The notes below the pieces were generated by a model. That model did no database searches and was not told the origin of the DNA. It worked only from the letters and a program-made list of their open reading frames with translations. Positions 2,043 through 45,163 of a DNA stretch of 45,426 nt are shown here, one piece after another (within the stretch, counting starts at the first letter, position 1; every line of letters starts with the position of its first letter). The DNA lies in IMG/VR virus record IMGVR_UViG_3300048837_000843, positions 1 through 45,426 of that record; one strand, written 5' to 3'. The position numbers and the translations under genes are program-made. The DNA is from a virus.

Positions 2043-2585
2043 ATGAAAAAATCAAAGTGCAAAAATCCACAATGTAAAAAGGAATTTATCAAAAAGAATC
2101 CATTAGTTCCATACTGTAGCCAAAGGTGCTATAATGAAGCAAATCAAAAGGATAGTTTGAAAGTATGCGGAAGATCAGGATGCGAAAACGAGTTTAGGCC
2201 ACTTCTAACGACCCAAAAGTATTGCTCTAATAACTGCCATAGGATTGACGGTAAACAGGCACCAAAAAGCAAGACGTATAAAATTAACAAGCAATCAAAG
2301 AAACACTCCAAAGTACTTAGTAAATATTCCACTATAAGGAAGGAGTTTCTTAGTAAACCAGAAAACAAGTACTGCAGGGTAAATAGATCAGTTGCAACCC
2401 AAGTTCACCATATGATGGGAAAGATAGGGTATGCAGATGATTGGGCTAGGGATAACGATATTCCCCTTTGGTTAGATGTAAGGTGGTTTCTTCCTGTATC
2501 ACATGAAGGTCATAGAGAAATAGAAGAAAATCCAGAATGGGCAAAGGAAAAAGGTTTCAGTTTAGACCGTCTTAAAAAAAATTAA
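2043..2585 (+). CDS. NinG-like protein: two zinc fingers and an HNH-like C-terminus
   Basis: A 180-residue protein. Two four-Cys knuckles are visible: C6/C11/C25/C29 and C42/C47/C61/C65, the second within VCGRSGCENEF...YCSNNC. A basic linker follows, then VHHMMGKIGY (H122, H123) and SHEGHREIEENPEWAKEKG (H154, H157). That C-terminal pattern is typical of phage HNH/NinG-type proteins in which an HH pair and an HxxH followed by a helix form the metal site. A structure-specific nuclease or recombination helper is likely. It starts 10 bases after the terminator, so it may depend on read-through or an unseen promoter. Confidence 0.65.
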   Translation: MKKSKCKNPQCKKEFIKKNPLVPYCSQRCYNEANQKDSLKVCGRSGCENEFRPLLTTQKYCSNNCHRIDGKQAPKSKTYKINKQSKKHSKVLSKYSTIRKEFLSKPENKYCRVNRSVATQVHHMMGKIGYADDWARDNDIPLWLDVRWFLPVSHEGHREIEENPEWAKEKGFSLDRLKKN

Positions 2586-2598
2586 AATAATTCTAGGA

Positions 2599-2630
2599 TA
2601 TATAAATATTTAGACTATCTTTACAGTGAA
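2599..2630 (+). promoter_or_regulatory. Repeated phage promoter motif, copy 1
   Basis: Contains TATAAATATTTAGAC then TATCTTTACAG, ending 18 bases before the ATG at 2649. TATCTTTA resembles the Bacteroidota -7 box TAnnTTTG. The same arrangement recurs at 5650, 11563, 26485 and 28310, each time upstream of a gene. Confidence 0.7.
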
Positions 2631-2648
2631 CATTTAAATCACATCACA

Positions 2649-2906
2649 ATGGAAACTTTAACATCACTTAGAATGAAAACGTCGATTCCTACCATTACAG
2701 AGATCAATAAAAACTTTGTAATCAGATGGAGGTACTACGATGAAGAATCTACTTCTTTTGACCGTTTGATCGGTGCCGGTAAATACGCTGAAAAGTTCAG
2801 TGAAAAATACATGGAAAAACATTTTGTAAGGGCTTTTGAATCAGGACTGAATAAAACAGTTTTCGGAATCAGGGGTAAATACATCATAACATTCTCTGCA
2901 AAATGA
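2649..2906 (+). CDS. Hypothetical protein, 85 aa
   Basis: First gene after promoter copy 1, with the ACATCACA leader directly before its ATG. The sequence mixes basic and aromatic residues (RWRYYDEES, KYAEKFSEKYMEKHF), suggesting a small alpha/beta fold. It overlaps the next gene by four bases (ATGA). No family recognised. Confidence 0.65.
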   Translation: METLTSLRMKTSIPTITEINKNFVIRWRYYDEESTSFDRLIGAGKYAEKFSEKYMEKHFVRAFESGLNKTVFGIRGKYIITFSAK

Positions 2907-3118
2907 ATACTGTAGTCGAAATTACATTGCACGATGTTTCTCTGCAGGTATATGGATTTGTATCAAAAGGAGAGCCGAGAACTATGGACTATATTGGATC
3001 GAGTCCAGAATTTGATGTAGAATGTGTATTTGCAGGAGGTGACAATATTTTAGCCTTGTTAGATGATCACATTGAAGAAATCAAAAGGTTGGCACTAGAA
3101 AAGTATTTTAACAATTAA
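2903..3118 (+). CDS. Conserved-type hypothetical phage protein, 71 aa
   Basis: The segment VSKGEPRTMDYIGSSPEFDVECVF (split here by its turns) with a C-terminal DDHIEEIKRLALEKY helix follows a pattern I recall from small proteins of many phages, where a Pro-Gly-Glu-Pro region is followed by a strand rich in acidic residues. Function of that group is unknown. It is coupled to the preceding gene by ATGA. Confidence 0.65.
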   Translation: MNTVVEITLHDVSLQVYGFVSKGEPRTMDYIGSSPEFDVECVFAGGDNILALLDDHIEEIKRLALEKYFNN

Positions 3119-3129
3119 ACATTTATATT

Positions 3130-4410
3130 ATGATCACAGTTATTAAAAACAACGGTCTTGTAGACGTTGAAGCATTTACCTTGTTAGGGGCATCCACAAA
3201 GAGGGATGAAAAAAACAAAATCGGTATGTTCGGATCTGGAAACAAATATGCGATTGCATATTTTATCAGGAACGGATATAAAGTTCGGATCTTTAGAGGT
3301 CATGAAGAAATTATCATTTCTACTGTTGAGAAAACTTTTAAAGAGAAAACTTTCAAAGTTATTTGCTTTAATGGCAAAGAGACAAGTATAACCACTGAAA
3401 CGGGTCCAGAGTGGACGTTTTGGCAATCTATGAGAGAGTTGTACTCAAATGCAATCGATGAAGGTGGTGAAAGGATATATAGAGCCGAAAAATACGAGTT
3501 AGTAAGAGGTGTAACCACAATTGCTGTAAAAGACAATGGCACAGAAACTATGAAAAATTTCCTAGATAACATTGAGGACTATTTTGTGGTTGAGAAGCCA
3601 TGGGCATTTAAGAATACTTCTGGTTGTTTGTTTCTTGATGATCCTGAAAAAACAGTCATTTACAGAAAGGGCATCAGATGTATGACTGATGAAGAAGTCG
3701 GCGCTTTTTTATTTAGTTACAATTTCAATAGCCTTCAAATATCGGAGTCTAGGATTTATTCAAGTTCCCTTGGATTGAGGGATGCTATTTACAGATTGCT
3801 TTGTTCGTGTGATGTTCCTGAAATAATTCAAAGGTATTTAAGATTAGTTGTAAACAACAACAGTATTGAAAGTGATGGTTTTGGGTTTGAGACACATATT
3901 TTCAGTGACACTTGGAAGAAAGTGTTGGATGGTCATTTTGTAGCACCTATAGAATTGGGTGGATGGGTAGAGAATAATATTAAGAACAAAACCTATTTGG
4001 TGCCATCAAGTGTTTATAATCAGATATTAGCACAATTTGGAGAGTCTTACAATGCCTTAAAAAATATGTCTGGATCATATATAAAGTATAGAGTTTTTGA
4101 GCCAAATGAATCGCAGATAAGTTATTTTGAAGAAGTTTTAGATCATCTTAGTTCATGTGATTATCCAATAGATCATCCAATTGTATTTTGTGATTTCAAT
4201 AGTGAAAGAACATTAGGTTTAGCAGAGAAAAAAACGATATTTCTTTCAAGAAAGTTATTTGAAAAAGGAAAGTTTACAATGGCAAAAGTAATCATGCATG
4301 AAGCCATGCATTTAGATTCTGGTTGTGTAGATGAATCAAGAGAGTTTGAAGATGCTATTTTCGACAAGTTGTTGAATTACATGAACTCTACACATAACAG
4401 ATACTTGTAA
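3130..4410 (+). CDS. GHKL-like ATPase with C-terminal HExxH metallopeptidase-like motif
   Basis: A 426-residue protein. Near the N-terminus IGMFGSGNKYAIAYFIRNG (31-49) resembles the G-rich lid motif of GyrB/Hsp90/MutL ATPases. It is followed, not preceded, by RELYSNAIDEGGE (102-114), which resembles the N-box with Glu103, Asn107 and Asp110, and by KDNGTE near 134-139. This order suggests a circularly permuted GHKL domain, an arrangement I recall in phage ATP-binding proteins of unknown role. The C-terminus has VIMHEAMHLDSG (388-398), an HExxH zinc site at 390-394, with acidic residues at 401-408 that could supply a third ligand. Activity is inferred from motifs only. The leader ACATTTATATT sits directly before the ATG. 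Confidence 0.65.
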   Translation: MITVIKNNGLVDVEAFTLLGASTKRDEKNKIGMFGSGNKYAIAYFIRNGYKVRIFRGHEEIIISTVEKTFKEKTFKVICFNGKETSITTETGPEWTFWQSMRELYSNAIDEGGERIYRAEKYELVRGVTTIAVKDNGTETMKNFLDNIEDYFVVEKPWAFKNTSGCLFLDDPEKTVIYRKGIRCMTDEEVGAFLFSYNFNSLQISESRIYSSSLGLRDAIYRLLCSCDVPEIIQRYLRLVVNNNSIESDGFGFETHIFSDTWKKVLDGHFVAPIELGGWVENNIKNKTYLVPSSVYNQILAQFGESYNALKNMSGSYIKYRVFEPNESQISYFEEVLDHLSSCDYPIDHPIVFCDFNSERTLGLAEKKTIFLSRKLFEKGKFTMAKVIMHEAMHLDSGCVDESREFEDAIFDKLLNYMNSTHNRYL

Positions 4411-4411
4411 C

Positions 4412-4534
4412 GTGTTAAATTTGATACTATTTGTATCCCTTATGCTGTTTACTACAGTTTTAGGGATACTTACCACCAAACAAAGAAGAAAAGCCGTTAA
4501 ACAAGCTGAAAATGCTTTAAATAAAAAATCATGA
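4412..4534 (+). CDS. Small membrane protein, 40 aa, GTG start
   Basis: Starting at GTG 4412, two bases after the previous stop, the frame reads VLNLILFVSLMLFTTVLGIL then a basic, Ala/Lys/Gln-rich tail (KQRRKAVKQAENALNKKS). One transmembrane helix and a cytoplasmic helical tail are likely. Its TGA overlaps the ATG of the next gene (ATGA). An internal ATG at 4442 would shorten the membrane segment, so GTG is preferred. Function unknown. Confidence 0.45.
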   Translation: MLNLILFVSLMLFTTVLGILTTKQRRKAVKQAENALNKKS

Positions 4535-4749
4535 AAACATTGAACGTTAAAAAGACAACTAGACAGGAGTTGTGGCATAATTGGGGGTTTGATCCCTTAA
4601 TTAGCAACACAACATCACCATTGATGCAGTCTATGCTTAAAGGTGAAGTTTATATACGGTGCAATTCAAAAGGTCAAGTGAATTGGGATAAAGCGCCATT
4701 ATACCATAAAGCAGAACTTGATAATCGTGGAAAAGTAAAAATTCATTGA
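4531..4749 (+). CDS. Hypothetical protein, 72 aa
   Basis: Begins MKTLNVKKTTRQELWHNWGF. Its first residues and first bases resemble those of the protein at 8936 (MKTLTIKEARK), but the rest differs. It ends one base before the next gene. No family recognised. Confidence 0.6.
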   Translation: MKTLNVKKTTRQELWHNWGFDPLISNTTSPLMQSMLKGEVYIRCNSKGQVNWDKAPLYHKAELDNRGKVKIH

Positions 4750-4750
4750 T

Positions 4751-5071
4751 ATGGCAAAAGAAGATCCGTTAGAAGGAATTGAGAAAATTGAAGTTAATAT
4801 GTCTCATATAGATGAAATAATTCTTTCATTAGATGAACCAGAGTACCCATATAATGAAGGTGAGTCATATTGGACTATGGAAGGAAAAAACAGCCTTGTT
4901 AGAAGTTGTTGGGATGATGTTTCAGAAGATCAGTTCAGATCAGATAAAATTTATTTTGATAACTTAGAGGACGGAATAAGATTTATGATGTCTCAAAAGA
5001 TCATGAAAATTAAGATCTATGATTACGCATCAAAATGTTACGAAATTAAAATTAATAGATTGTTCACTTAA
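4751..5071 (+). CDS. Hypothetical acidic protein, 106 aa
   Basis: An acidic protein with WTMEGKNSLVRSCWDD in the middle and a C-terminal strand-rich segment (IMKIKIYDYASKCYEIKIN). It lies in a run of tightly packed small genes between the GHKL-like gene and promoter copy 2. No family recognised. Confidence 0.6.
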   Translation: MAKEDPLEGIEKIEVNMSHIDEIILSLDEPEYPYNEGESYWTMEGKNSLVRSCWDDVSEDQFRSDKIYFDNLEDGIRFMMSQKIMKIKIYDYASKCYEIKINRLFT

Positions 5072-5082
5072 AACCAAAAATC

Positions 5083-5634
5083 ATGGCAGTATTAACGTTC
5101 GGGGTAGAGTTCCCCAAAGAGATCCATTACATTCAAAAAAAGACGTATTTCCAAGAAAAAATATTGTCTACAGTTTATAACCATTCTGGAAAGATGCCGG
5201 TAAACCTCGCAACCAATCCAACTTTGATTGAATCCATGGTCGGCGCAGTAAAACCAAAAGTTCATGCTATTATTCCAAAAGGAAGCAAGATCAAAAAAGG
5301 AACTATTTTACACATGAATAGCAAAGGCGAAAGGAAAACAGAAAGAAAATTTGCACCGATAATAAAATGTACAGAGGTTGAACAAATCAAGATTGTTCAT
5401 AATGATTTTGGAAATACAGCAAAAAGAGTTGATGTATTTATCAATGGCAAAAGGTTTGGTGAGATCAGAAGCCTGGGCGGTGTTCTGGTAAGTGTTGACA
5501 AGAGCCTTAGAGATCTATTAACAAATGAAGGATATGATAATGCATTGGTGTTTGTTAATTGTTTTCCTGAAACTAATGAATATGATTTGGTTCATTGGGG
5601 AAATGTAAGATATGACCAGAAGGAAAAAAAATAA
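5083..5634 (+). CDS. Hypothetical protein, 183 aa
   Basis: The protein has a basic centre (KPKVHAIIPKGSKIKKG and KGERKTERKF) and a strand-rich C-terminal half containing VDVFINGKRFGEIRSLGG. It is the last gene before promoter copy 2. No catalytic pattern or family is recognised. Confidence 0.6.
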   Translation: MAVLTFGVEFPKEIHYIQKKTYFQEKILSTVYNHSGKMPVNLATNPTLIESMVGAVKPKVHAIIPKGSKIKKGTILHMNSKGERKTERKFAPIIKCTEVEQIKIVHNDFGNTAKRVDVFINGKRFGEIRSLGGVLVSVDKSLRDLLTNEGYDNALVFVNCFPETNEYDLVHWGNVRYDQKEKK

Positions 5635-5649
5635 AGTTGTCTTGTCGAT

Positions 5650-5682
5650 GATATAAATATTTATACTATATTTACAGTATAA
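5650..5682 (+). promoter_or_regulatory. Repeated phage promoter motif, copy 2
   Basis: ATATAAATATTTATAC followed by TATATTTACAGTATAA, then the shared leader ACATTTATAAAACATCACATC and the ATG at 5703. This copy contains the full palindrome ATAAATATTTAT. Confidence 0.72.
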
Positions 5683-5702
5683 CATTTATAAAACATCACA
5701 TC

Positions 5703-5909
5703 ATGGCACTTGAAAAATTAAATTCACTTCACAATAGGAAGCCAGAAAACTATTCTAAAAATCACAAAAGAACGGCCTTGAAATATCTAAAAAGGGAGCG
5801 TAAAAAATTCATGAAGATCAAGAATCCAACTTTTGGCGAAAAGATGGTTAACGGTATGAATAACCACTTCATTAAGGCTTTTAGCCTAAAATCAATTACT
5901 AATCAATAA
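5703..5909 (+). CDS. Small basic protein, 68 aa
   Basis: Very rich in Lys, Arg and Asn (RTALKYLKRERKKFMKIK), with a predicted pI well above 10. A nucleic-acid-binding role is possible but no motif shows it. It is the first gene after promoter copy 2. Confidence 0.6.
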   Translation: MALEKLNSLHNRKPENYSKNHKRTALKYLKRERKKFMKIKNPTFGEKMVNGMNNHFIKAFSLKSITNQ

Positions 5910-5919
5910 ATACATAAGC

Positions 5920-6144
5920 ATGAGATTTACAGTAGTAGCAATTACCGAAAAAACTAAAAAAGTAGGAATCGGTACAGATCTGCCTAGCGCATTGAAAAAT
6001 GTAAAATGGCTTAAAAGTGACAAAGTTGCCATCACTCTTTATGAGTGTGAGCCAAGTAAGATCCAAGTAAGGGAAGATATGCAAATGAGTATTCCTTTTG
6101 GAACTAAGAGTTTTAATCTAACTTCTGGATTCGAGAAACTTTAG
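5920..6144 (+). CDS. Hypothetical protein, 74 aa
   Basis: Starts with strand-forming MRFTVVAITEKTKKVG and has a helix region LPSALKNVKWLKSDK, consistent with a small alpha/beta protein. Two bases separate it from the next gene. No family recognised. Confidence 0.6.
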   Translation: MRFTVVAITEKTKKVGIGTDLPSALKNVKWLKSDKVAITLYECEPSKIQVREDMQMSIPFGTKSFNLTSGFEKL

Positions 6145-6146
6145 CC

Positions 6147-6353
6147 ATGTCAAAGGAGCAGAGATTGATCACAGCTATTAAAACGGTTGAAGCAACTGTT
6201 AAACAGAATAGCAACTGCAGGAAAAAAAGAAAGTTAATATCCTGTCAACAATGTGACATTTTGAAGTCTTGCAATATGCACGATTATCAGAAGAAACTTG
6301 AAAGGAAAAATGCATTTGTAAAGTGGAGTATAACGCACAGAAAAAGGTTTTAA
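6147..6353 (+). CDS. Small Cys-containing basic protein, 68 aa
   Basis: Has C24, C33, C36 and C42 in a spacing that could bind one zinc ion (SCQQCDILKSC), inside a Lys/Arg-rich chain. Its TAA overlaps the ATG of the next gene (TAATG). A small zinc-binding nucleic-acid protein is possible but unproven. Confidence 0.6.
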   Translation: MSKEQRLITAIKTVEATVKQNSNCRKKRKLISCQQCDILKSCNMHDYQKKLERKNAFVKWSITHRKRF

Positions 6354-6571
6354 TGCCGTTTAGTGTTTTTTCCTTCCATTCCATTATTAAAGTTGACAAA
6401 CTTCCTACAGAAGCAAAAGAATGCACTTCTGATGGCTTTACCTACTGGTATTCAAAAGAAGATCTGTCAGATGATGGAGTGGAAAAAGTTAAAAAGTATT
6501 TGACTTCATGGTTGGAATGTGAACGTTTTTTAGAAGATAGTTGTTTTGATGTATTAATTTATGAGCCATGA
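6353..6571 (+). CDS. Hypothetical protein, 72 aa
   Basis: The frame is open upstream to an ATG at 6323, but the ATG at 6353 overlaps the previous stop as TAATG, the coupling used elsewhere here, so MPFSVFSFHS is taken as the start. The protein has a WYSKEDLSDDGVEKVKKYL helix and three Cys. It ends in an ATGA overlap with the next gene. Confidence 0.55.
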   Translation: MPFSVFSFHSIIKVDKLPTEAKECTSDGFTYWYSKEDLSDDGVEKVKKYLTSWLECERFLEDSCFDVLIYEP

Positions 6572-6684
6572 ACAGGAATAAAAATGAACGTATTGCAGAA
6601 ATAATTATTTTGTCAGGTATTTTCTTCTTTGTATTGGCAATTGCTATTTTGATTTTTAGTTATGTGTTTTGTATCAAACCTTAA
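6568..6684 (+). CDS. Small membrane protein, 38 aa
   Basis: Coupled to the previous gene by ATGA. A basic/acidic N-terminus (MNRNKNERIAE) precedes one long hydrophobic helix, about residues 12-34. Single-pass membrane protein of unknown role. Confidence 0.55.
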   Translation: MNRNKNERIAEIIILSGIFFFVLAIAILIFSYVFCIKP

Positions 6685-6694
6685 AAATAATTAT

Positions 6695-6850
6695 ATGGTA
6701 CTTAGAATTAATGAAGGCGTAAGGCCAAAGAGAAAACCAAACTTCACTCGATGGATGATGAAGCATGGTGTTAGTAGTAATGTTTGCTCTAGTTCCTTTG
6801 CAATTTCCAGAGGTATTGAGAGTATGTATAAATCAGATCAGAACTTATGA
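6695..6850 (+). CDS. Small basic protein, 51 aa
   Basis: The frame extends to an ATG at 6662 inside the previous gene, but the ATG at 6695 just after that gene's stop gives a more likely start (MVLRINEGVRPKRK). It is basic with several Ser and overlaps the next gene by ATGA. No family recognised. Confidence 0.5.
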   Translation: MVLRINEGVRPKRKPNFTRWMMKHGVSSNVCSSSFAISRGIESMYKSDQNL

Positions 6851-7074
6851 AAGTTTACATAACATTCGGTCAGATCCACGTGCATAGTGTTAATGGTAAG
6901 ACGTTTAATAAAGACTGTGTTGCCGTTATAAATTGCAACGATTATTTAGACGGAAGGGAAAAGGCTTTTGAACTTTTTGGAGACAAGTGGCATATGTGCT
7001 ATCATGAAGATGATTTTAAAGAAGAAATCATGCATTATTTTCCAAGAGGTAAGATTGTAGTAAATCCAGTATGA
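6847..7074 (+). CDS. Hypothetical protein of a phage-type family, 75 aa
   Basis: The segment ITFGQIHVHSVNGKTFNKDC resembles a small phage protein I recall with the pattern FGQxHxHxVNGxxxDKDCVA; its function is unknown. The His and Cys residues could bind metal. Coupled to the HNH gene downstream by ATGA. Confidence 0.65.
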   Translation: MKVYITFGQIHVHSVNGKTFNKDCVAVINCNDYLDGREKAFELFGDKWHMCYHEDDFKEEIMHYFPRGKIVVNPV

Positions 7075-7544
7075 TGAAAATTCCTAAGATAGATGTGCTT
7101 GAAAAATGGTTGTCGGATCGAGGGGCAGAAATCCTGCCTTTAACTAGTGAACATGAGGCTTTGAGATTTAAAGGGTTGGAGGTAGGAGTTTTGTACAAAT
7201 CCGGCAAATGTGGAAACAAGTACACTGAAAGAGCGATCAATTGTTTTTGGAGAAATATACCATGGGATGGTAGGCCGGTCAGAACTAAGAGAAAAAGCAG
7301 TTATGCAAAGGATCGAAGAAACCTGATCAAACGTGACGGATGGGCTTGTTTCTATTGTGGTCAATTAATGGATGATGATATTACCGTTGAACATCTTGAC
7401 CCATTAACAGCAAGTGGTAGTGAGAAACTTTCAAACAAAGTATTAGCACATGAAAAATGTAATGAAAATATGGGCACCAAAACTATTGTAGAAAAGGTTA
7501 ACCATGCAATTAAATTAAGAGTTGAGTTAATAACAAAAAACTAA
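7071..7544 (+). CDS. HNH endonuclease
   Basis: A 157-residue protein with a C-terminal HNH domain: RRNLIKRDGWACFYCG (C93, C96), DDITVEHLDP (E107, H108, D110), then SNKVLAHEKCNENMG (N122, H127, C130). This is the ββα-metal fold with two zinc-ligand pairs. The N-terminal 70 residues are unrelated and may recognise substrate. Phage HNH proteins act as homing-type nicking enzymes or in packaging; far from the terminase, a free-standing HNH role is more likely. Its stop codon forms TAACG with the following bases. Confidence 0.82.
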   Translation: MMKIPKIDVLEKWLSDRGAEILPLTSEHEALRFKGLEVGVLYKSGKCGNKYTERAINCFWRNIPWDGRPVRTKRKSSYAKDRRNLIKRDGWACFYCGQLMDDDITVEHLDPLTASGSEKLSNKVLAHEKCNENMGTKTIVEKVNHAIKLRVELITKN

Positions 7545-7565: not shown

Positions 7566-8018
7566 ATGAAAACTATAAGTAAGAATATATTGATACTGAT
7601 TTTTTTATTAGTTCCCTTATTTGGCATTTCGCAGACATTTATAAATATATTAGGCGGTTATTCCACAACAGAAGGAATGTCAATAGGTGCAGGTGCTAAA
7701 ACAACGATAGTAGATGATATAGGTGTTCAGTTTGATTTCAGGAAAGTGGAAGGAGTAAAGGATTTTGAAAATTATGATCTTTCATTGAGATATGAGTTAT
7801 TTAACACAATGTCATTAAATGTTGGTGGTCAACATTCTACACCAGAAAGCAACCTTAATGCGTTTGTAGGAACTACATTTTTCTATGAAGTAAACAGTAT
7901 TCTAAGGCTTATGATCGATTATCAGCAAGTTATTGGAAAGGACATTGGAAACATATCATTTGGTTTTCAGATGCGCTTTATTCCTAATAAGGATAAGTCA
8001 AAAATTAGATTTTTTTAA
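7566..8018 (+). CDS. Small outer-membrane beta-barrel-like protein with signal peptide
   Basis: Residues 1-22 are a signal peptide (basic start, ILILIFLLVPLFGISQ). The rest is a chain of short alternating strands such as VQFDFRKVEG, YDLSLRYELF, NAFVGTTFFYEV, LRLMIDYQQV and ISFGFQMRFI, and the protein ends in Phe-Phe, like barrel proteins recognised by the BAM machinery. At about 128 mature residues it fits an eight-stranded barrel. A phage gene for such a protein could change the host surface, for example to block superinfection; that is inference. No lipobox is seen. Confidence 0.6.
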   Translation: MKTISKNILILIFLLVPLFGISQTFINILGGYSTTEGMSIGAGAKTTIVDDIGVQFDFRKVEGVKDFENYDLSLRYELFNTMSLNVGGQHSTPESNLNAFVGTTFFYEVNSILRLMIDYQQVIGKDIGNISFGFQMRFIPNKDKSKIRFF

Positions 8019-8029
8019 ACATTTATATT

Positions 8030-8371
8030 ATGAAAAACTTGTATTTAAGATGGAAGTACAATCTTCCAAAGAAAATGAAAAAAGTGTGGTGGAATAGAAC
8101 ACTTCATATGACAGAGTATATTTTCCCAGTGCTCACATGGAGTGGTATAAGATACCTAAAATGTAAAGTAGGATTAATTGTTCCAATGGAAAAGCTGAAA
8201 GATGGAAGATATGCATACTATAGAGTAGTAAAAATATCCAAATCGCCAGGTGGTGATTGGTTATTCGATACAGATCCAATAGATTGTGATATGGTATTCG
8301 AGGGCATTAACAGAAAACTTGGTATAGGTGGCCTTGATGAAAATGAGTATCCAATGAGAAATAAATGTTAA
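8030..8371 (+). CDS. Hypothetical protein, 113 aa
   Basis: Starts after the leader ACATTTATATT, as at 3130 and 14884. The N-terminal 40 residues are basic and rich in Trp (MKKVWWNRTLHMTEYIF), the C-terminal half is acidic. No signal peptide and no family recognised. Confidence 0.6.
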   Translation: MKNLYLRWKYNLPKKMKKVWWNRTLHMTEYIFPVLTWSGIRYLKCKVGLIVPMEKLKDGRYAYYRVVKISKSPGGDWLFDTDPIDCDMVFEGINRKLGIGGLDENEYPMRNKC

Positions 8372-8935: not shown

Positions 8936-9172
8936 ATGAAAACATTGACTATTAAAGAAGCTAGAAAACTTTTGATTAAATACTGCATATATATTTTTGA
9001 TGAATGTAAGGAAGAGGATAAAGCAACTATTGATGAATTTTTAAACACTATAAAGGAAACTGTAAATCAAAACGAGGGTAAAGAACCTTTTAGGATTTAC
9101 AAAAAATGCGCTGTTTGTGGTTGTGAGTTGCCAGATAACTATATAACAAATGTATGTTATGGATGTGATTAA
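8936..9172 (+). CDS. Hypothetical protein with C-terminal zinc ribbon, 78 aa
   Basis: An N-terminal helical part (IKEARKLLIKYCIYIF) is followed by a four-Cys ribbon near the C-terminus, KKCAVCGC and NVCYGCD. Probably binds one zinc. It starts two bases after the previous gene. Role unknown. Confidence 0.6.
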   Translation: MKTLTIKEARKLLIKYCIYIFDECKEEDKATIDEFLNTIKETVNQNEGKEPFRIYKKCAVCGCELPDNYITNVCYGCD

Positions 9173-9686: not shown

Positions 9687-10019
9687 ATGAAAAAAGTAAT
9701 TTTAATTTTAATGCTTGGCCTATTTGCCTTGAATGTAAGTGCAGTTAACACAGAGCCTAAACAGAGTGATCAAACTGAATTGATTGTAGATTATAAGGAC
9801 GTTAATGAAGTAGTGGATTGTGTTTTTAAATTGCCGGAAAATGTGTCGAAAGACCATAAAGAGCGATCAGCACTTATGAAGATGGAAGTAAGTTTGAAAA
9901 ACCCTGATCCTAAAATGGAGCCATGCAAATTTGATGATAGATTTTGGTGTGGTGGTAAGATACGCAGAGACCCACCTGCCAGTCCTGAAATCAAAATTGT
10001 CATTGACAAAATAGAGTAA
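9687..10019 (+). CDS. Secreted or periplasmic protein, 110 aa
   Basis: Residues 1-19 are a signal peptide (MKKVILILMLGLFALNVSA) with an Ala-x-Ala-like cleavage site before VNTEP. The mature part of about 90 residues is charged and has three Cys (near 46, 78 and 88), which could form a disulphide in the periplasm. The leader ends in TTTATATT before the ATG and the gene is closed by a strong terminator. A moron-like, host-surface-altering role is possible; no family recognised. Confidence 0.6.
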   Translation: MKKVILILMLGLFALNVSAVNTEPKQSDQTELIVDYKDVNEVVDCVFKLPENVSKDHKERSALMKMEVSLKNPDPKMEPCKFDDRFWCGGKIRRDPPASPEIKIVIDKIE

Positions 10020-10185: not shown

Positions 10186-10851
10186 ATGCAGGTTGAATAT
10201 GTAGAAATCGATTCCGTTATTCCAAACGAATCAAACCCACGTAAAATTACCCAGAAGAAGTTGAGCGATCTAATGAGGTCGATGAAAAACTTTCCTATAA
10301 TGCAAAAGCTAAGGCCGATCATAGTTGATGAAAATATGGTTGCTATTGGTGGAAACCAAAGGTTAAAGGCGGCAAAGAAATTAGGTTGGACTCATGTTCA
10401 TATAATGAAGGAAAGTGAGTTAACAGAAGATCAGAAGAAAGAGTTTGTAGTTAAAGACAATGTTAGTTTTGGTTACTTCGATGATGAAGTCATGATGCAG
10501 GATTATACTTTTGATCAGTTGGTGGATTTTGGGGTTGATATGACCGACATTGGCAAAGGGGCAAAAGAAAAAGAGATTGACGAAAACAAAGAGGTAATTC
10601 CGCAAATGGAACTTCGGTTCAATGAGCATTATGACTACATAGTTTTCCTTTTTGATAACGATCATGATTGGCTTTATATTTCCAATAAGTTAGGATTGAA
10701 GAAAGTAGATTCGTCTTATTCTCCTAAAAACAAAAAAATAGGATTAGGTAGAGTAATTCAAGGAAATAAGATCCTAGAGTTATTGAAGGAGTTAGAAGCC
10801 AAAAATGAAATAATCAAAAAATATGAAAAAGGTAATACTAAGTCGAAGTAG
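10186..10851 (+). CDS. ParB/Srx-like N-terminal domain protein
   Basis: A 221-residue protein. ESNPRK (15-20), LRPIIVD (42-48) and the box GGNQRLKAAKKLGW (55-68) are the motifs of the ParB/sulfiredoxin-like fold, whose GxxR box binds a nucleotide. The rest (about 90-221) is charged and has no HTH that I recognise, so this is not a partition ParB. Phage proteins of this type act as nucleases, regulators or partners of DNA-modifying enzymes. The gene overlaps the glycosyltransferase gene by 29 bases, so the two are probably translated together. Confidence 0.72.
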   Translation: MQVEYVEIDSVIPNESNPRKITQKKLSDLMRSMKNFPIMQKLRPIIVDENMVAIGGNQRLKAAKKLGWTHVHIMKESELTEDQKKEFVVKDNVSFGYFDDEVMMQDYTFDQLVDFGVDMTDIGKGAKEKEIDENKEVIPQMELRFNEHYDYIVFLFDNDHDWLYISNKLGLKKVDSSYSPKNKKIGLGRVIQGNKILELLKELEAKNEIIKKYEKGNTKSK

Positions 10852-11551
10852 ATCAAGCACCATAATAACCCACAAGTTGGTTTCAGGGTTTGATCTTGTA
10901 GTTCCTGAATCAGAATATGATCTGTACAAAAAGGTCGTTAAAAACGCTGATAACATCAAAACTATTCCAGACACTTACAATGGGTTAGGAGAAGTCAGAA
11001 ATTGGGTATTGGACAATTATGAAGATGAAGGTATAATAATGCTTGATGATGATATAGGATCGTTCTATAATCTGATGAACTCTAGTAGCTTTGTTATACG
11101 AGATGTTGACACCATTGACCAGATCCTTTTTAACGCTTATCAATGTGCATTGGATAGTGGTTGTAAATTGTTTTCCTTTAATCAAAAAGCAGATGTCAGA
11201 AAGTTTTCTCCACACCAACCATTTTCATTAAATGCCTTGGCCGGCACAGTTGTCGGGATAATTGGAAGGGATCTAAGATTTACAGAAATAAATAAATTGA
11301 AGGTAGATGCCGACTATTCTCTACAATCTTTGTTGAAGCATAGAATTGTGTGGATTGATAACCGATATGCAGCCAGTCCGATCAGAGATAAAAATGCAGG
11401 TGGAAATAGTCTATTCAAAACAAAAGAGTTAGTTGATCAGGAAAACGAATTTCTTAGGGAAAAGTGGGGCAAATACATCTACATAGGATCACAAAAACAA
11501 ACTGGTTTATTAAGACTTAAAGTTGACAGAAAACAGAAGTTAAATTTTTGA
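10823..11551 (+). CDS. GT-A type glycosyltransferase (TET-associated-glycosyltransferase-like)
   Basis: A 242-residue protein. LSRSRSSTIITHKLV (6-20), VVPESEYDLY (26-35), GLGEVRNWVLDNY (54-66) and EGIIMLDDDIGSF (69-81) follow the order of small nucleotide-sugar transferases; the DDD at 75-77 would bind metal and sugar nucleotide. I recall this pattern in the TAGT family of phage glycosyltransferases linked with hypermodified DNA bases. The acceptor here could be DNA, a virion protein or host surface. Overlap with the ParB-like gene argues for a joint task. The fold is fairly sure, the substrate is not. Confidence 0.65.
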   Translation: MKKVILSRSRSSTIITHKLVSGFDLVVPESEYDLYKKVVKNADNIKTIPDTYNGLGEVRNWVLDNYEDEGIIMLDDDIGSFYNLMNSSSFVIRDVDTIDQILFNAYQCALDSGCKLFSFNQKADVRKFSPHQPFSLNALAGTVVGIIGRDLRFTEINKLKVDADYSLQSLLKHRIVWIDNRYAASPIRDKNAGGNSLFKTKELVDQENEFLREKWGKYIYIGSQKQTGLLRLKVDRKQKLNF

Positions 11552-15319: not shown

Positions 15320-15796
15320 ATGACAAAGTTTAAATTTAACACAAAAACCGCTATTGCTTTATATGCGATGTTAGCGGTAGTGCTTTCTTCGTGTGAAAGT
15401 AAACAAGATGTTCAATTAGATATTGAGCGTTTGAAAAATGAAAGAACTACTATTCAACAGGAAGTTCAAAATCTTTCAAGTCTTACAAACTCAAAGCAGA
15501 AAGAGATTGCTTCTTTGAATGAGAAATTAAAAGAACTGAATATATACAATTCAGGAAAAACACCACATTACATTTTAAAGATTAGATTGAAGCAATCTCG
15601 TGTAAGTTTAGATATTGGCAAACATATAAAAGACGGTATGAATGCAATAGAATTTGAACTTCCTGTGGATAAAGACTTCTATAATAGTGTTAGCGTTGGA
15701 ACTAAGATTACTGATGAATTTAGGACTGGTTCTTTCATTTTGAATGGTAGTTTTAGTAGTTGGGATATGACTGTTAAAGGTAAGGTTGTGAGGTAG
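15320..15796 (+). CDS. Lipoprotein with coiled coil, 158 aa
   Basis: A signal segment TAIALYAMLAVVLSSC ends in Cys25 after LSS, a Bacteroidota-type lipobox, followed by ESKQ. Residues about 29-76 form a heptad-rich coiled coil (LDIERLKNERTTIQQEV...IASLNEKLKEL). The last 75 residues are a beta-rich domain (HYILKIRLKQSRVSLDIG...FILNGSFSSWDMTVKGKV). Probably a periplasm-facing or surface lipoprotein. Last gene of the cassette-like block. Phage lipoproteins can alter superinfection; that is inference. Confidence 0.72.
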   Translation: MTKFKFNTKTAIALYAMLAVVLSSCESKQDVQLDIERLKNERTTIQQEVQNLSSLTNSKQKEIASLNEKLKELNIYNSGKTPHYILKIRLKQSRVSLDIGKHIKDGMNAIEFELPVDKDFYNSVSVGTKITDEFRTGSFILNGSFSSWDMTVKGKVVR

Positions 15797-39668: not shown

Positions 39669-39844
39669 CAATATTAAGAATTGCATTGGATCTTATTTCA
39701 ATAGGTCTAATTATTTGGTTTATAATCATATTGAAAAACCAGAGGAAAGACACTCCAACCATGGTAAAAGATGGTGACACCATCAAGTTACTGGATGAAG
39801 ATGGAAATGTGTTTTATGAGTCAACAACTAGAAAAAATAAGTGA
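39665..39844 (+). CDS. Small membrane protein, 59 aa
   Basis: One hydrophobic helix (about residues 7-23, [17 protein letters not shown]), then a charged soluble tail ending [19 protein letters not shown] at its start and TGATG at its end join it to both neighbours. Role unknown; could anchor or chaperone the secreted proteins that follow. Confidence 0.55.
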
Positions 39845-41544
39845 TGAAAAAATTAATTTACATTGTACTACTGTTATTTGCAACTGGATCTATTTATGGC
39901 CAAAGACAAATACCTAAATCAGATGGTTTAAGGATTGCTCCAAAGGATGCGCCAAGCACACCAATAAGAGGTGAGATTTATTATGACAGCATAAATAATT
40001 CTTTAGCTTCGTGGAATGGGGTTTCGTGGGATAATTATATTTTGGCATCTGATATTGCCGACTTGTCTTTGGGTGATCTTTCTCAGCTTGATCAAGTATC
40101 AGAAACTGAAATATTAGACAATGCTATTACCACTTCAAAGATAGCGGATGGAACTATAACTAATAATGATATAAACAGTTCAGCAGGTATAGCACTTACT
40201 AAACTAGCAACGGTTACACCATCATCGCCAATTATAAGTAATATAACTGGGAATCTACAAGCTACAACAGTTAATAATTTTATAGATGATGTACTTGACT
40301 TAGATACTAAATTCGGTAGATTAAACTCGGTTAATTCATGGACTACTACTAATTCATTCGCAGGTACAACTAATTTTACAGGTTTAGTATCATCTAATAG
40401 TGTACAGTTAAACAGTTTATCTTGGAAACAAAAAGATGTAACTGATAATGCCAAGTGGCAATTATTAAGAAGTGGGACTATATCTGATACTGATAGAAGT
40501 TTAGTTTGGCAATATGAAATTGGTCATAATGATTCATTCAGTACATTATACACTTTAAATTATACTGGTACTCCCACAGTTGGCACCGATTTGGCTGATA
40601 AGGATTATGTAGATTCCGTAGCTGGTAGCGGAACTATAGCAGACGGCTCCATAACCAACGCCAAATTAGCGGACATGGCAGCCAACAGCATAAAACTGAA
40701 CAATACGGGAAGTGCTGCCCCTCCTATAGACGGAACTATTCCGCAATTGAAGGCAATGCTTGATTATGATATGTCCGAAATCGATAATACCCCATCTGGA
40801 AATATTGCAGCTACTACAGGGCAAGCAGCTATTAATGAACTGGATTCGGAGAAAGGGGGGTTGGCAACATCGAATACTTGGTCCAGCGATAACACTTTTG
40901 CTATAGGACTTTTTAATAATCCTATTTATAACGGTCAGGTGTATGGTGTTTCCGATAAAAGATGGGCATTTGGAAAAGAACCTTCGCAAGTGGATGGTGA
41001 TTTTCTTTTCACCAGACAAAATTCAAATCAAATCAATTATGGTGGAGTATATGAACTTATAGCCAAAATAAACGCAAGCGGAAACCCAACCGATGCAACC
41101 GATTTGACCGATAAGGCTTATGTGGATGCGGAAATTGCAGGTGTTACAGGTTCTGGAATCCAATTGCACCCAGATTCCCCTGTAACGATAGATAGTCTTT
41201 ATGTGGGTACGGTGGCTCAGATAGAAGCGGCAGGATTGGGAACAGATGTACTTTCAATTCCAACAGATGCATCACCGGCAACAACCTTCACAGGCACGGT
41301 TATTCCTTTGGACGGTTATTATACCATAGACAACACTTCCACGGATACGGCAACATGGACACTAAACGCAACGGTACGCAACGGGGCTTCATTTGATATA
41401 CTTATAGACATGGCAAGTGAACCCACAATAACAGGGGCAACGGAAATACCTGGGACGGCAGGATTTTCAACAAATACATTATCGGTAATCAAAGGAACGG
41501 TAATACAGGGAACCGTTTACTACTACTTTTTAGACTTGGAATAA
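39844..41544 (+). CDS. Fibre-like protein with an N-terminal signal peptide
   Basis: The ATG at 39844 overlaps the previous stop; a GTG at 39841 is also in frame. [20 protein letters not shown] is a typical Bacteroidota signal peptide, with mature RQIPKSDGL. The protein contains fibre modules: [39 protein letters not shown] and the repeats [11 protein letters not shown] and [12 protein letters not shown] fibre of this type normally stays in the cytoplasm until assembly, so the signal peptide is unusual. Base composition rises in GC from about 40620, suggesting a joint inside the gene. Confidence 0.7.
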
Positions 41545-42108
41545 ATGAGGAGTTTATTAATCATATTACTTTTTTCTTTTAGTGCTTATGGGCAGCAGGA
41601 CTTGTTATTGGCTAGTATCCAACAAGCGGGGGGCGGTGGTATTACAAACTTATATACATTTGCCAACGCTGCTAATCCAGATAGTGAAGTTAATGCTACC
41701 ACAGGTTTCACCGTGGGAACAAACAGCCCTACAATAGCATCTACCGCTACAAGCCCACATGATGGATCTTATAGATTGGAATTAACAGCAGGAACCACGG
41801 GAGCAACTAGTAATGGTACATTTTCATTTACCAACGCAGTATTGCCTCCATCCACAGCGGTAACGGTCAAGATATGGGCTTATGAGGAAGCTGGCACTAG
41901 CAGATGGAACATAGAGCTTCCATCTTGGGGTGGTTGGGCCTCCACTATTGCCGTAACTACAATTTCTACTACAGTTTGGACAGAATACACCTTATCTGGA
42001 ACTACAACTGGTTCGGCAGCAACGAGGTATATTCTTATCCAATCAGATAGCGACACCCCAACGGGCAGAAAGATATTTTTTGATGATATAACGGTTACAA
42101 TTCCATGA
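41545..42108 (+). CDS. Secreted jelly-roll / carbohydrate-binding-like protein, 187 aa
   Basis: A signal peptide MRSLLIILLFSFSAYGQ is followed by a beta-rich domain: FTVGTNSPTIASTATSPHDGSYRLEL, TAVTVKIWAYEEAGTSRWNI and RKIFFDDITVTIP (long parts shortened). The order of strands ending in FDDI resembles carbohydrate-binding modules of the jelly-roll type. Starts directly after the previous stop and overlaps the lyase gene by four bases, so it is likely a partner of the lyase. Confidence 0.65.
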   Translation: MRSLLIILLFSFSAYGQQDLLLASIQQAGGGGITNLYTFANAANPDSEVNATTGFTVGTNSPTIASTATSPHDGSYRLELTAGTTGATSNGTFSFTNAVLPPSTAVTVKIWAYEEAGTSRWNIELPSWGGWASTIAVTTISTTVWTEYTLSGTTTGSAATRYILIQSDSDTPTGRKIFFDDITVTIP

Positions 42109-43523
42109 ATAAACTCACCTACATAGTTCTTTTATTTCCTTTATTAATGATGGGGCAGACCTTAGCCCTTCCTTGGGCGCATGGTCACGGCAGATACACT
42201 ACGGGCGGTCGGGGATATGGATTATATTTTGTTACCAATACAAATAATAGTGGCGCAGGTAGTCTTAGACAAGCCTTAGCGGATGCCGATAGTGCTGGTG
42301 GTGGGAATATAATTTTTAGAACTTCTGGAACTGTAACATTAAGTACTGACCTTGGCATAACGGGGGATAACATTACCATTTGGGGGATGTCCGCTCCTGG
42401 GGATGGGATAACTGTCTATAATGATGAAACCTATATTTATGGCCAGAATATAATTATTACTGATATGCGCTTTAGGGGAGGTGATACAGCAGTTTCACAG
42501 GAAGAAGATGTTATTAGAATACAAAGCCAAGGACAATCTGGAACTTTCCAAAATTATATGTTTGACCATATTTCTGTGTCATGGGGAGGCGATGAAAATT
42601 TTAGTGTAGAAACTGGCACCGGGGGGGGTGTAACGGTAAACAATATGACCGTTCAGAATTCAATAATTTCAGAACCATTTAACAGTAAAAATGTTATTCT
42701 TTGGGGTAAAAATATTTCAGATATTTCATTTATAGCAAATTATTTAGCCCATTCTAATGAAAGAAATATTAGAAGTTCTACCGATTCAGATAAATGGGAA
42801 CAGGTTAATAATTTTATCTATAATTATGGATTAGGGATAAATCCAACGGCAGGTAATTGGGTGGATGCAATTGGCAATGTTTTTGAGGACGGGCCATCCA
42901 CTCAAATTGCCAACACCATACATTGGGAAACCTGCTCATCAGGCAATTGCCCTCCAAGTGGATTGACGGATTTTTCAACTTCAAGATTGTATCAAATTGA
43001 TAACACATTTAACGGAGGTTCTGTTTCTGTAAGTAGTAATATTTCGGCCTATACCACAGGCACACCTAACGTAAGTAGCGAACATATTGCAATGGCATCA
43101 AGTTTGGTTAAGGCTTATGTGTTGGACAATGCAGGGGCTAGGGCATGGCTGCCCAGCGGAGTAGATGATTTGGATGCTCATATATTGGCAGATGGTGCAA
43201 ATGGCTCGACTGGTTCGTTTCCAAGTAGTGAAGCGGGAACAACAGGGCTGCCTACACTAGCCTCTGGAACCGCATATACGGATACTGACAATGATGGAAT
43301 GGGAGACGATTGGGAAATGGCAAGATGGGGCGACTTGGACGAAACGTATAGCGGTGATGACGACGCTGATGGGTATTTAAATCTCGAAGAGTTTATGCAC
43401 TACAGGGTAGGTAAAGGAGACGCAGGAGTAAGTCCTGAAACAAGCATAACCCCTACAGTATTTAGAATAGGAAGCACAATAAGCCCTTTCTTTTATTTGG
43501 GGCCAACTAAATATAGATTATAA
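42105..43523 (+). CDS. Secreted pectate lyase-like protein (PL1-like)
   Basis: A 472-residue protein. Residues 1-21 are a signal peptide (MNKLTYIVLLFPLLMMGQTLA). GHGRYTTGGRGYGLYFVTN and SGAGSLRQALADADSAGGG are the typical N-terminal coil of family 1 pectate lyases, and FDHISVSWGGDENFSV matches the conserved DHxSxSW.xDE strand. A parallel beta-helix follows, then DTDNDGMGDDWE and DDDADGYLNLEEF, a calcium-binding EF-hand/dockerin-like end. It would cleave uronate-containing polysaccharide outside the cytoplasm. Whether it is virion-bound or truly secreted is open. Confidence 0.8.
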   Translation: MNKLTYIVLLFPLLMMGQTLALPWAHGHGRYTTGGRGYGLYFVTNTNNSGAGSLRQALADADSAGGGNIIFRTSGTVTLSTDLGITGDNITIWGMSAPGDGITVYNDETYIYGQNIIITDMRFRGGDTAVSQEEDVIRIQSQGQSGTFQNYMFDHISVSWGGDENFSVETGTGGGVTVNNMTVQNSIISEPFNSKNVILWGKNISDISFIANYLAHSNERNIRSSTDSDKWEQVNNFIYNYGLGINPTAGNWVDAIGNVFEDGPSTQIANTIHWETCSSGNCPPSGLTDFSTSRLYQIDNTFNGGSVSVSSNISAYTTGTPNVSSEHIAMASSLVKAYVLDNAGARAWLPSGVDDLDAHILADGANGSTGSFPSSEAGTTGLPTLASGTAYTDTDNDGMGDDWEMARWGDLDETYSGDDDADGYLNLEEFMHYRVGKGDAGVSPETSITPTVFRIGSTISPFFYLGPTKYRL

Positions 43524-43970: not shown

Positions 43971-44323
43971 GCTATACTATGACAGATAAAGTAAGAAACC
44001 GGTATGAGTGGATTTACAAAGCACTTGTAATTTCTTTATTGACAATGATGTTAGGTTACTTAGTTACATTTGTTCCTAAAGCTGTTGATGCAATTAACAA
44101 TAGAACATTTGATACCGAAAGTCAAAAGACAGAAACAATTGCTAGAAATGGAAAGTACATTGTTTCAGAAGTCGAAAAAGAAAGGTTAATGCGCCACATG
44201 GAAGATAAAAACCGACATATGTCTGTTGAAGAAAAAGAACAGCTGATCATCATACGTGAAAATCAAAAACGTATTGGTGAAGATCTACAGGAAATTAAGA
44301 CACTATTAAAAACGTTAAGATAA
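43967..44323 (+). CDS. Membrane-anchored coiled-coil protein (XhlA-like, tentative)
   Basis: One membrane segment at about 20-38 (LVISLLTMMLGYLVTFVP), then a Glu/Lys-rich tail with coiled-coil ending IRENQKRIGEDLQEIKTLLK. This resembles haemolysin XhlA-type lysis helpers in reverse orientation. ATGA overlap before it, and it overlaps the endolysin start by one base. Start could also be the ATG at 43979. Confidence 0.55.
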   Translation: MSYTMTDKVRNRYEWIYKALVISLLTMMLGYLVTFVPKAVDAINNRTFDTESQKTETIARNGKYIVSEVEKERLMRHMEDKNRHMSVEEKEQLIIIRENQKRIGEDLQEIKTLLKTLR

Positions 44324-44770: not shown

Positions 44771-45163
44771 ATGAATGAAGAAATAAAATTTTCCAACAAA
44801 ATAAGTCCAGAAAAACGCAAGTTATATTTTATGTATGGTTTTTTAGGCTTTATGTTCATTTTCCTAGCATATCTTTATTTCAACAACAAAACCCTCACAA
44901 AAAAACTTTCAGAGCGTTACAAAGAAGATATTGAAAAATTAAGTTCCACAATTAACGAAGCTGAAAAGACAGTTGATAATTTAGAAGTTCAGTATTCAGA
45001 TGTTTTGGAAAAAATTGAAAGTTTGAAATTAGATTTAAACAAGAATGTAAAAATCCTTAACAATGAAAAAGCAAAAATCAATGAACTTAATAAGAAATTC
45101 AAAACCTTACCTAATAGTGTTCGGGATTCTATTCTGCGTCAGTTTATCAGGGCAAACCAATAA
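44771..45163 (+). CDS. Inner-membrane coiled-coil protein, i-spanin-like
   Basis: A 130-residue protein with a membrane segment at about 19-37 (LYFMYGFLGFMFIFLAYLYF) and a periplasmic coiled coil (LSSTINEAEKTVDNLEVQYSD and on). It has the topology of a Rz-type i-spanin. It follows the endolysin and overlaps an out-of-frame secreted protein by 83 bases, as spanin genes often do. Function inferred from architecture. Confidence 0.6.
   Translation: MNEEIKFSNKISPEKRKLYFMYGFLGFMFIFLAYLYFNNKTLTKKLSERYKEDIEKLSSTINEAEKTVDNLEVQYSDVLEKIESLKLDLNKNVKILNNEKAKINELNKKFKTLPNSVRDSILRQFIRANQ

Follow-up and report, generated by a model that had tools for sequence, protein, structure and literature searches.

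Small outer membrane barrels made by phages are already known as a kind. According to PMC8508112, Lom of phage lambda belongs to the Ail/OmpX/PagC/Lom family, and we found relatives of Lom in 95 of 50,697 phage records. The first-pass annotation of the locus described here had held that phages seldom carry such barrels; for the one family counted, the number agrees with this, but lambda provides a well-known case of a phage-made barrel of this size. Two other small phage proteins exclude superinfection, namely Llp of T5, which binds FhuA (PMC9586334), and Rtp45, which changes LptD (PMC12685063), and structures exist for both, as stated in these two papers.

We report here a short viral open reading frame (ORF) whose product, judging from its sequence, is likely to be an eight-stranded outer membrane barrel. 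The window, that is, the whole stretch of DNA that was analysed, is the entire IMG/VR virus record IMGVR_UViG_3300048837_000843 (45,426 bases). The host probably belongs to the Bacteroidota, since the closest large terminases among the named phages searched are those of Flavobacterium phages tant8-1 (55%) and 1/32 (49%). If the barrel is real, it would be a new and unusually short representative of this kind, and would occur in a phage of another phylum than the Lom type. Positions 1 and 45426 of the window are bridged in the contig of a relative (L119, positions 2186-6868) by about 4.7 kb that are absent from the window, which makes it probable that the record is incomplete and circularly permuted. 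The bridging segment carries a helix-turn-helix (HTH) gene and, by eye, ORFs resembling single-strand annealing, exonuclease and DnaB-type helicase genes of recombination and replication.

The candidate gene and its neighbourhood

The candidate gene, its signal peptide and the adjacent genes are as follows.

7071..7544, + strand: upstream neighbour, HNH endonuclease (PF01844, 3.9e-6; phrog_7785, 3.7e-14)
7566..8018, + strand: candidate barrel ORF (P0001, 150 aa), ATG at 7566, stop at 8018; purifying selection
7566..7634, + strand: predicted signal peptide, residues 1-23 (crude signal-peptide filter; cleavage site by eye)
8030..8371, + strand: downstream neighbour, 113 aa, no family found (Pfam, PHROG and further family searches)

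The ORF lies exactly where it had first been placed, with 150 open codons. Its N-terminus, MKTISKNILILIFLLVPLFGISQ, comprises two lysine residues, a hydrophobic core and a polar end, and passed the crude filter, in agreement with the signal peptide that had been claimed. The mature part consists of 127 residues, with a predicted mass of 14.3 kDa and a pI of 5.3. It contains no cysteine and the protein is therefore not a lipoprotein; the combination of a signal peptide and no lipobox cysteine, by sequence and crude filter, is that of a small outer membrane barrel.

The neighbours with an assigned family are mostly of nucleic-acid kinds, and the same side of the window comprises Holliday junction resolvase, HNH, ParB-like, glycosyltransferase-like and DNA methylase genes. 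The lysis-type genes are found at the other end of the window, with an M15 peptidase at 44323 and an Rz-like spanin at 44771. With regard to timing, the position of the candidate among DNA-metabolism genes suggests expression early or in the middle of infection, in a phage without evident lysogeny: a PF00589 integrase, the one integrase family searched for, was absent from both the window record and the relative, which may be incomplete, and a lysogenic stage is thus not indicated. In scans of the region around the gene, neither promoters nor terminators exceeded chance expectation. A Bacteroidota-type promoter pattern matched the window 9 times against 4.2 expected, and the match nearest to the gene is at 8971.

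Tests of the predicted barrel

As controls, we used 30 PF13505 barrels from a single bacterial family, taking one per genome from 30 of 31 genomes. The short amphipathic strands that the first-pass annotation had reported are borne out by the alternation of the mature part, which exceeds chance (z 3.3, p 0.003 by shuffling) and ranks first among the 61 window ORFs chosen as genes; 29 of the 30 control barrels reached an alternation z of at least 2.86. Two controls, L148 (443 aa; alternation z -0.28, eight-strand z 2.74) and L149 (alternation z 4.72, eight-strand z 5.0), were excluded from both hidden Markov models (HMMs) described below, and L148 alone from the control-barrel profile.

The first model was a freer cyclic barrel HMM with trained loop lengths, based on 28 control barrels. 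The candidate scored z 2.3, below all held-out controls (5.9-13.5) and Lom (7.1), and was second in the window to another gene (z 3.04). This model treated residues 59-112 as one loop, and the reversed candidate scored 2.8. After this weak result, the freer HMM was replaced by an explicit eight-strand model, in which the lengths of loops and turns were fixed and only the residue preferences were trained on the controls (28 of 30 used). With the eight-strand model, the candidate scored z 4.28, a value reached by none of 1000 shuffles, compared with 3.96-10.2 for the held-out controls and 4.69 for Lom; none of the 45 other window genes of at least 100 aa exceeded 2.16. The score varied from 4.1 to 4.7 across five starts, so the result is independent of the choice of cleavage site. 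The reversed candidate also scored high (3.9), and the strand models therefore see alternation and spacing, not direction. The parse obtained with this model is given below.

7641..7664, + strand: predicted strand 1, residues 26-33
7674..7712, + strand: predicted strand 2, residues 37-49
7719..7742, + strand: predicted strand 3, residues 52-59, after a 2-residue turn
7779..7802, + strand: predicted strand 4, residues 72-79 (loop in the freer HMM)
7809..7832, + strand: predicted strand 5, residues 82-89, after a 2-residue turn (loop in the freer HMM)
7854..7892, + strand: predicted strand 6, residues 97-109 (loop in the freer HMM)
7902..7925, + strand: predicted strand 7, residues 113-120, after a 3-residue turn
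7950..7988, + strand: predicted strand 8 and likely beta-signal, residues 129-141, NISFGFQMRFIPN
7989..8015, + strand: charged C-terminal tail KDKSKIRFF, residues 142-150 (from the sequence and the eight-strand parse)

Eight amphipathic strands with a hydrophobic outward face are thus found with the eight-strand model, the score in the freer HMM being weak. In the parse, the outward face shows no charged residue among 39 positions, of which 34 are hydrophobic, and the inward face shows 9 charged residues among 40; these counts describe the parse and do not test it, since the parse maximises such a split. The predicted hairpin turns comprise 2, 2 and 3 residues and the four predicted loops 3, 12, 7 and 8 residues. 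Predicted strand 8 resembles, by eye, the last strands of the control barrels. A C-terminal aromatic residue on the closing strand is usual in small outer membrane barrels, and is not obligatory. The terminal Phe-Phe cited earlier in favour of a barrel is present, as the chain ends in RFF, but the parse places these two residues in the nine-residue charged tail, past the last predicted strand.

A profile built from 29 of the control barrels gave 6.0 bits for the mature candidate and 2.4 bits for its reverse, with 17 of 2000 shuffles (1844 among the matches listed) equalling the mature candidate. The candidate ranked 8th of 17,555 ORFs (10,421 among the matches listed) with an E-value of 13, which does not represent significant homology. 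In Pfam, the sole match was PF13505 OMP_b-brl, in both members of the candidate family, with a best E-value of 0.041 and 14.5 bits, below the curated cut-off of 28.7 bits; PF06316 Ail_Lom was absent from the Pfam matches. NCBIfam and PADLOC gave no match, nor did a sequence search against solved structures up to an E-value of 10. The two PHROG matches, phrog_17605 (E 0.049) and phrog_17242 (E 0.18), are both weak and belong to families of unknown function. When phrog_17605 was compared with the window, it matched the same stretch at 15.2 bits, and 3 of 14 control genomes also matched it at a loose limit. AlphaFold, with two near-identical sequences as input, returned no barrel, the mean pLDDT being 34.6 (whole protein) and 35.1 (mature part). 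The eight-stranded barrel proposed by the first-pass annotation therefore finds support in the alternation and eight-strand tests and weaker support in the freer HMM; the Pfam match is below threshold, and the AlphaFold models are of very low confidence.

Conservation, relatives and other exported products

Copies of the candidate were found in two contigs only of viral_contigs. One (L002, 100%) encodes an identical protein, and the other, a 50,765-base contig (L003, L119), has a copy with 95% identity at the corresponding position, likewise flanked by the HNH gene and the gene for the 113-aa product. The latter copy differs at 14 synonymous and 7 non-synonymous sites (pN/pS 0.14). As these differences are mostly silent, the candidate is a working gene under purifying selection. 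Across the 22 genes compared with this relative, pN/pS ranged from 0 to 0.34 where a ratio could be formed, whereas each of the remaining genes lacked a silent change or a match, or contained an indel. When placed on the parse, the seven substitutions fall in the signal peptide (one), loops or turns (three), the inward face (one) and the outward face (two, both Ile/Val/Leu exchanges), and none of the seven introduces an outward charge.

In the phage collection, no relative of the candidate was found at an E-value of 1, and this sequence family was seen in no named phage; with the mature part and E-values up to 10, 180 records matched, the best 20 of the 180 at E-values of 1 to 4. No relative was found in genome_contigs, and a profile of the two sequences retrieved only the known copies from 17,555 six-frame ORFs of the fetched loci, the next best match being at an E-value of 0.19. 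At an E-value of 0.01, 8 of 397 genomes of one bacterial family matched the whole protein and 3 matched the mature part; 3 of 395 genomes of the class gave a match. Of three of these bacterial loci that were inspected (L109-L111), L109 and L111 were rejected as relatives, as they appear by eye to encode larger outer-membrane-type proteins matched mainly via the signal peptide and some strands. Another bacterial match, L115, showed 27% identity and two internal stops.

We also screened loci, mostly around related terminases, for small exported barrels, which yielded 66 signal-peptide ORFs out of 2055. Beyond copies of the candidate, this screen retained one lipoprotein of this phage with its copies and two other ORFs, none of them alike. 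Nothing resembling the candidate was seen in Flavobacterium phages tant8-1 and 1/32, either in their annotation or inside the screen. The screen is not exhaustive, because Lom, though present, was missed and 4 of the 30 control barrels fail its signal-peptide filter; many loci are moreover partial. A literature search for barrels of Bacteroidota phages, including Flavobacterium and Bacteroidetes phages, returned none among the matches listed, as judged by titles.

Several other ORFs of the window deserve mention in their own right. A second small exported protein (9687-10019, 110 aa), for which no family was found, is encoded among the DNA-metabolism genes and differs from its counterpart in the relative by one amino-acid change and no silent change. 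At 10186-11551, a ParB-like gene (PF02195) adjoins a TET-associated glycosyltransferase (PF20691, E 1.5e-8), which may point to modified bases in the DNA of this phage. The ORF at 15320-15796, which had the highest eight-strand score of the 45 other window genes (z 2.16), encodes a putative lipoprotein (LSSC) with a coiled-coil-like part. Following the tail genes, three consecutive ORFs (39841-41544, 41545-42108 and 42105-43523) show signal-peptide-like starts, which is unusual for tail-region proteins, and none of them matched a Pfam family over cut-off. The Rz-like spanin (44771-45163; phrog_739, E 4.7e-6) has its best match in phrog_6631, of unknown function. From 45063, a signal-peptide ORF in another frame overlaps it and runs off the end of the window, in the manner of an Rz/Rz1 pair; this ORF is complete in the relative (L119, 1822-2238).

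Possible function and comparison with known systems

Our preferred, still tentative reading is that the candidate is a minimal outer membrane barrel made during infection, perhaps for superinfection exclusion. In the infected Bacteroidota cell, the host Sec machinery would export the protein and BAM would insert it into the outer membrane as a closed barrel. There, it would change either a surface protein of the host or the membrane itself, such that further phages of the same kind fail to adsorb or inject. Exclusion is perhaps the likeliest job of this protein, by analogy with the small outer-membrane-acting phage proteins Llp and Rtp45. The receptor masking that the first-pass annotation had considered likely is doubtful if it depends on long loops: the predicted loops comprise only 3-12 residues, and shielding of a receptor is therefore not an obvious mechanism. 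Given these short loops, exclusion would have to work through contacts made inside the membrane or from the periplasm. A more specific version, in which an exceptionally small barrel (about 118 residues without the tail) with no known relatives disables a receptor by side-to-side contact in the membrane, appears quite unlikely.

The barrel itself may be questioned. A secreted, soluble, beta-rich periplasmic protein would be consistent with the AlphaFold models, which show no barrel (mean pLDDT 35), with the weak score in the freer HMM and with the lack of significant homology to barrels. We nevertheless regard such a protein as somewhat unlikely in view of the eight-strand scores. The score of the candidate was reached by none of 300 sampled non-signal ORFs (maximum 3.72), drawn from 1219 mechanical ORFs of which many are surely not genes. 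It was reached by 9 of the 65 signal-peptide ORFs of the fetched loci, namely Lom and eight ORFs that neighbour control barrels. Pfam assigns 7 of these 9 to a barrel family, 6 of them above its cut-off, whereas the other 2 have no such match; the set is biased, as eight of the nine come from loci chosen for barrels. A role in lysis, by weakening the outer membrane late in infection, would have precedent, as exported outer membrane proteins serve lysis in other phages. It is nonetheless very improbable here, since the lysis-type genes occupy the opposite end of the window and the candidate is located among DNA-metabolism genes. A barrel could also behave as a surface moron in the manner of Lom, affecting the surface of an infected or lysogenised cell, or the stability of its membrane, without any role in exclusion. 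Lom shares the layout of a signal peptide and eight strands (eight-strand z 4.69), and is described in PMC10695390 as non-essential for lambda plaques. However, neither the window record nor the relative carries a PF00589 integrase, the loops of the candidate are much shorter than those of Lom in the respective parses, and no sequence relation to Lom is apparent, which makes this option unlikely.

If the preferred reading of an exclusion barrel is true, phage-made outer membrane barrels would extend from the enterobacterial Lom type to an unrelated minimal family in a Bacteroidota phage, and the protein would offer a simple way to learn whether superinfection can be excluded by an integral barrel. 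Like the candidate, Lom (PF06316 Ail_Lom) is phage-encoded, possesses a signal peptide and reaches a comparable eight-strand score. It differs in having no detectable homology to the candidate (BLASTP E 0.076 over 22 residues), in its length (206 aa with longer loops, against 150 aa) and in its position, as it adjoins the tail-fibre genes in lambda whereas the candidate is found among DNA-metabolism genes. The PF13505 OMP_b-brl barrels of Capnocytophaga-family genomes resemble the candidate in layout and alternation, and through its subthreshold Pfam match. In contrast, the mature part of all 30 controls comprises at least 156 residues, compared with 127 in the candidate, which is recognised marginally by the profile of 29 of them. 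Finally, T5 Llp and Rtp45 are, according to PMC9586334 and PMC12685063, small phage proteins acting on a host outer membrane protein, as is proposed for the candidate; Llp is a periplasmic lipoprotein (PMC9586334), whereas the candidate, with no cysteine in its mature part, is not a lipoprotein.
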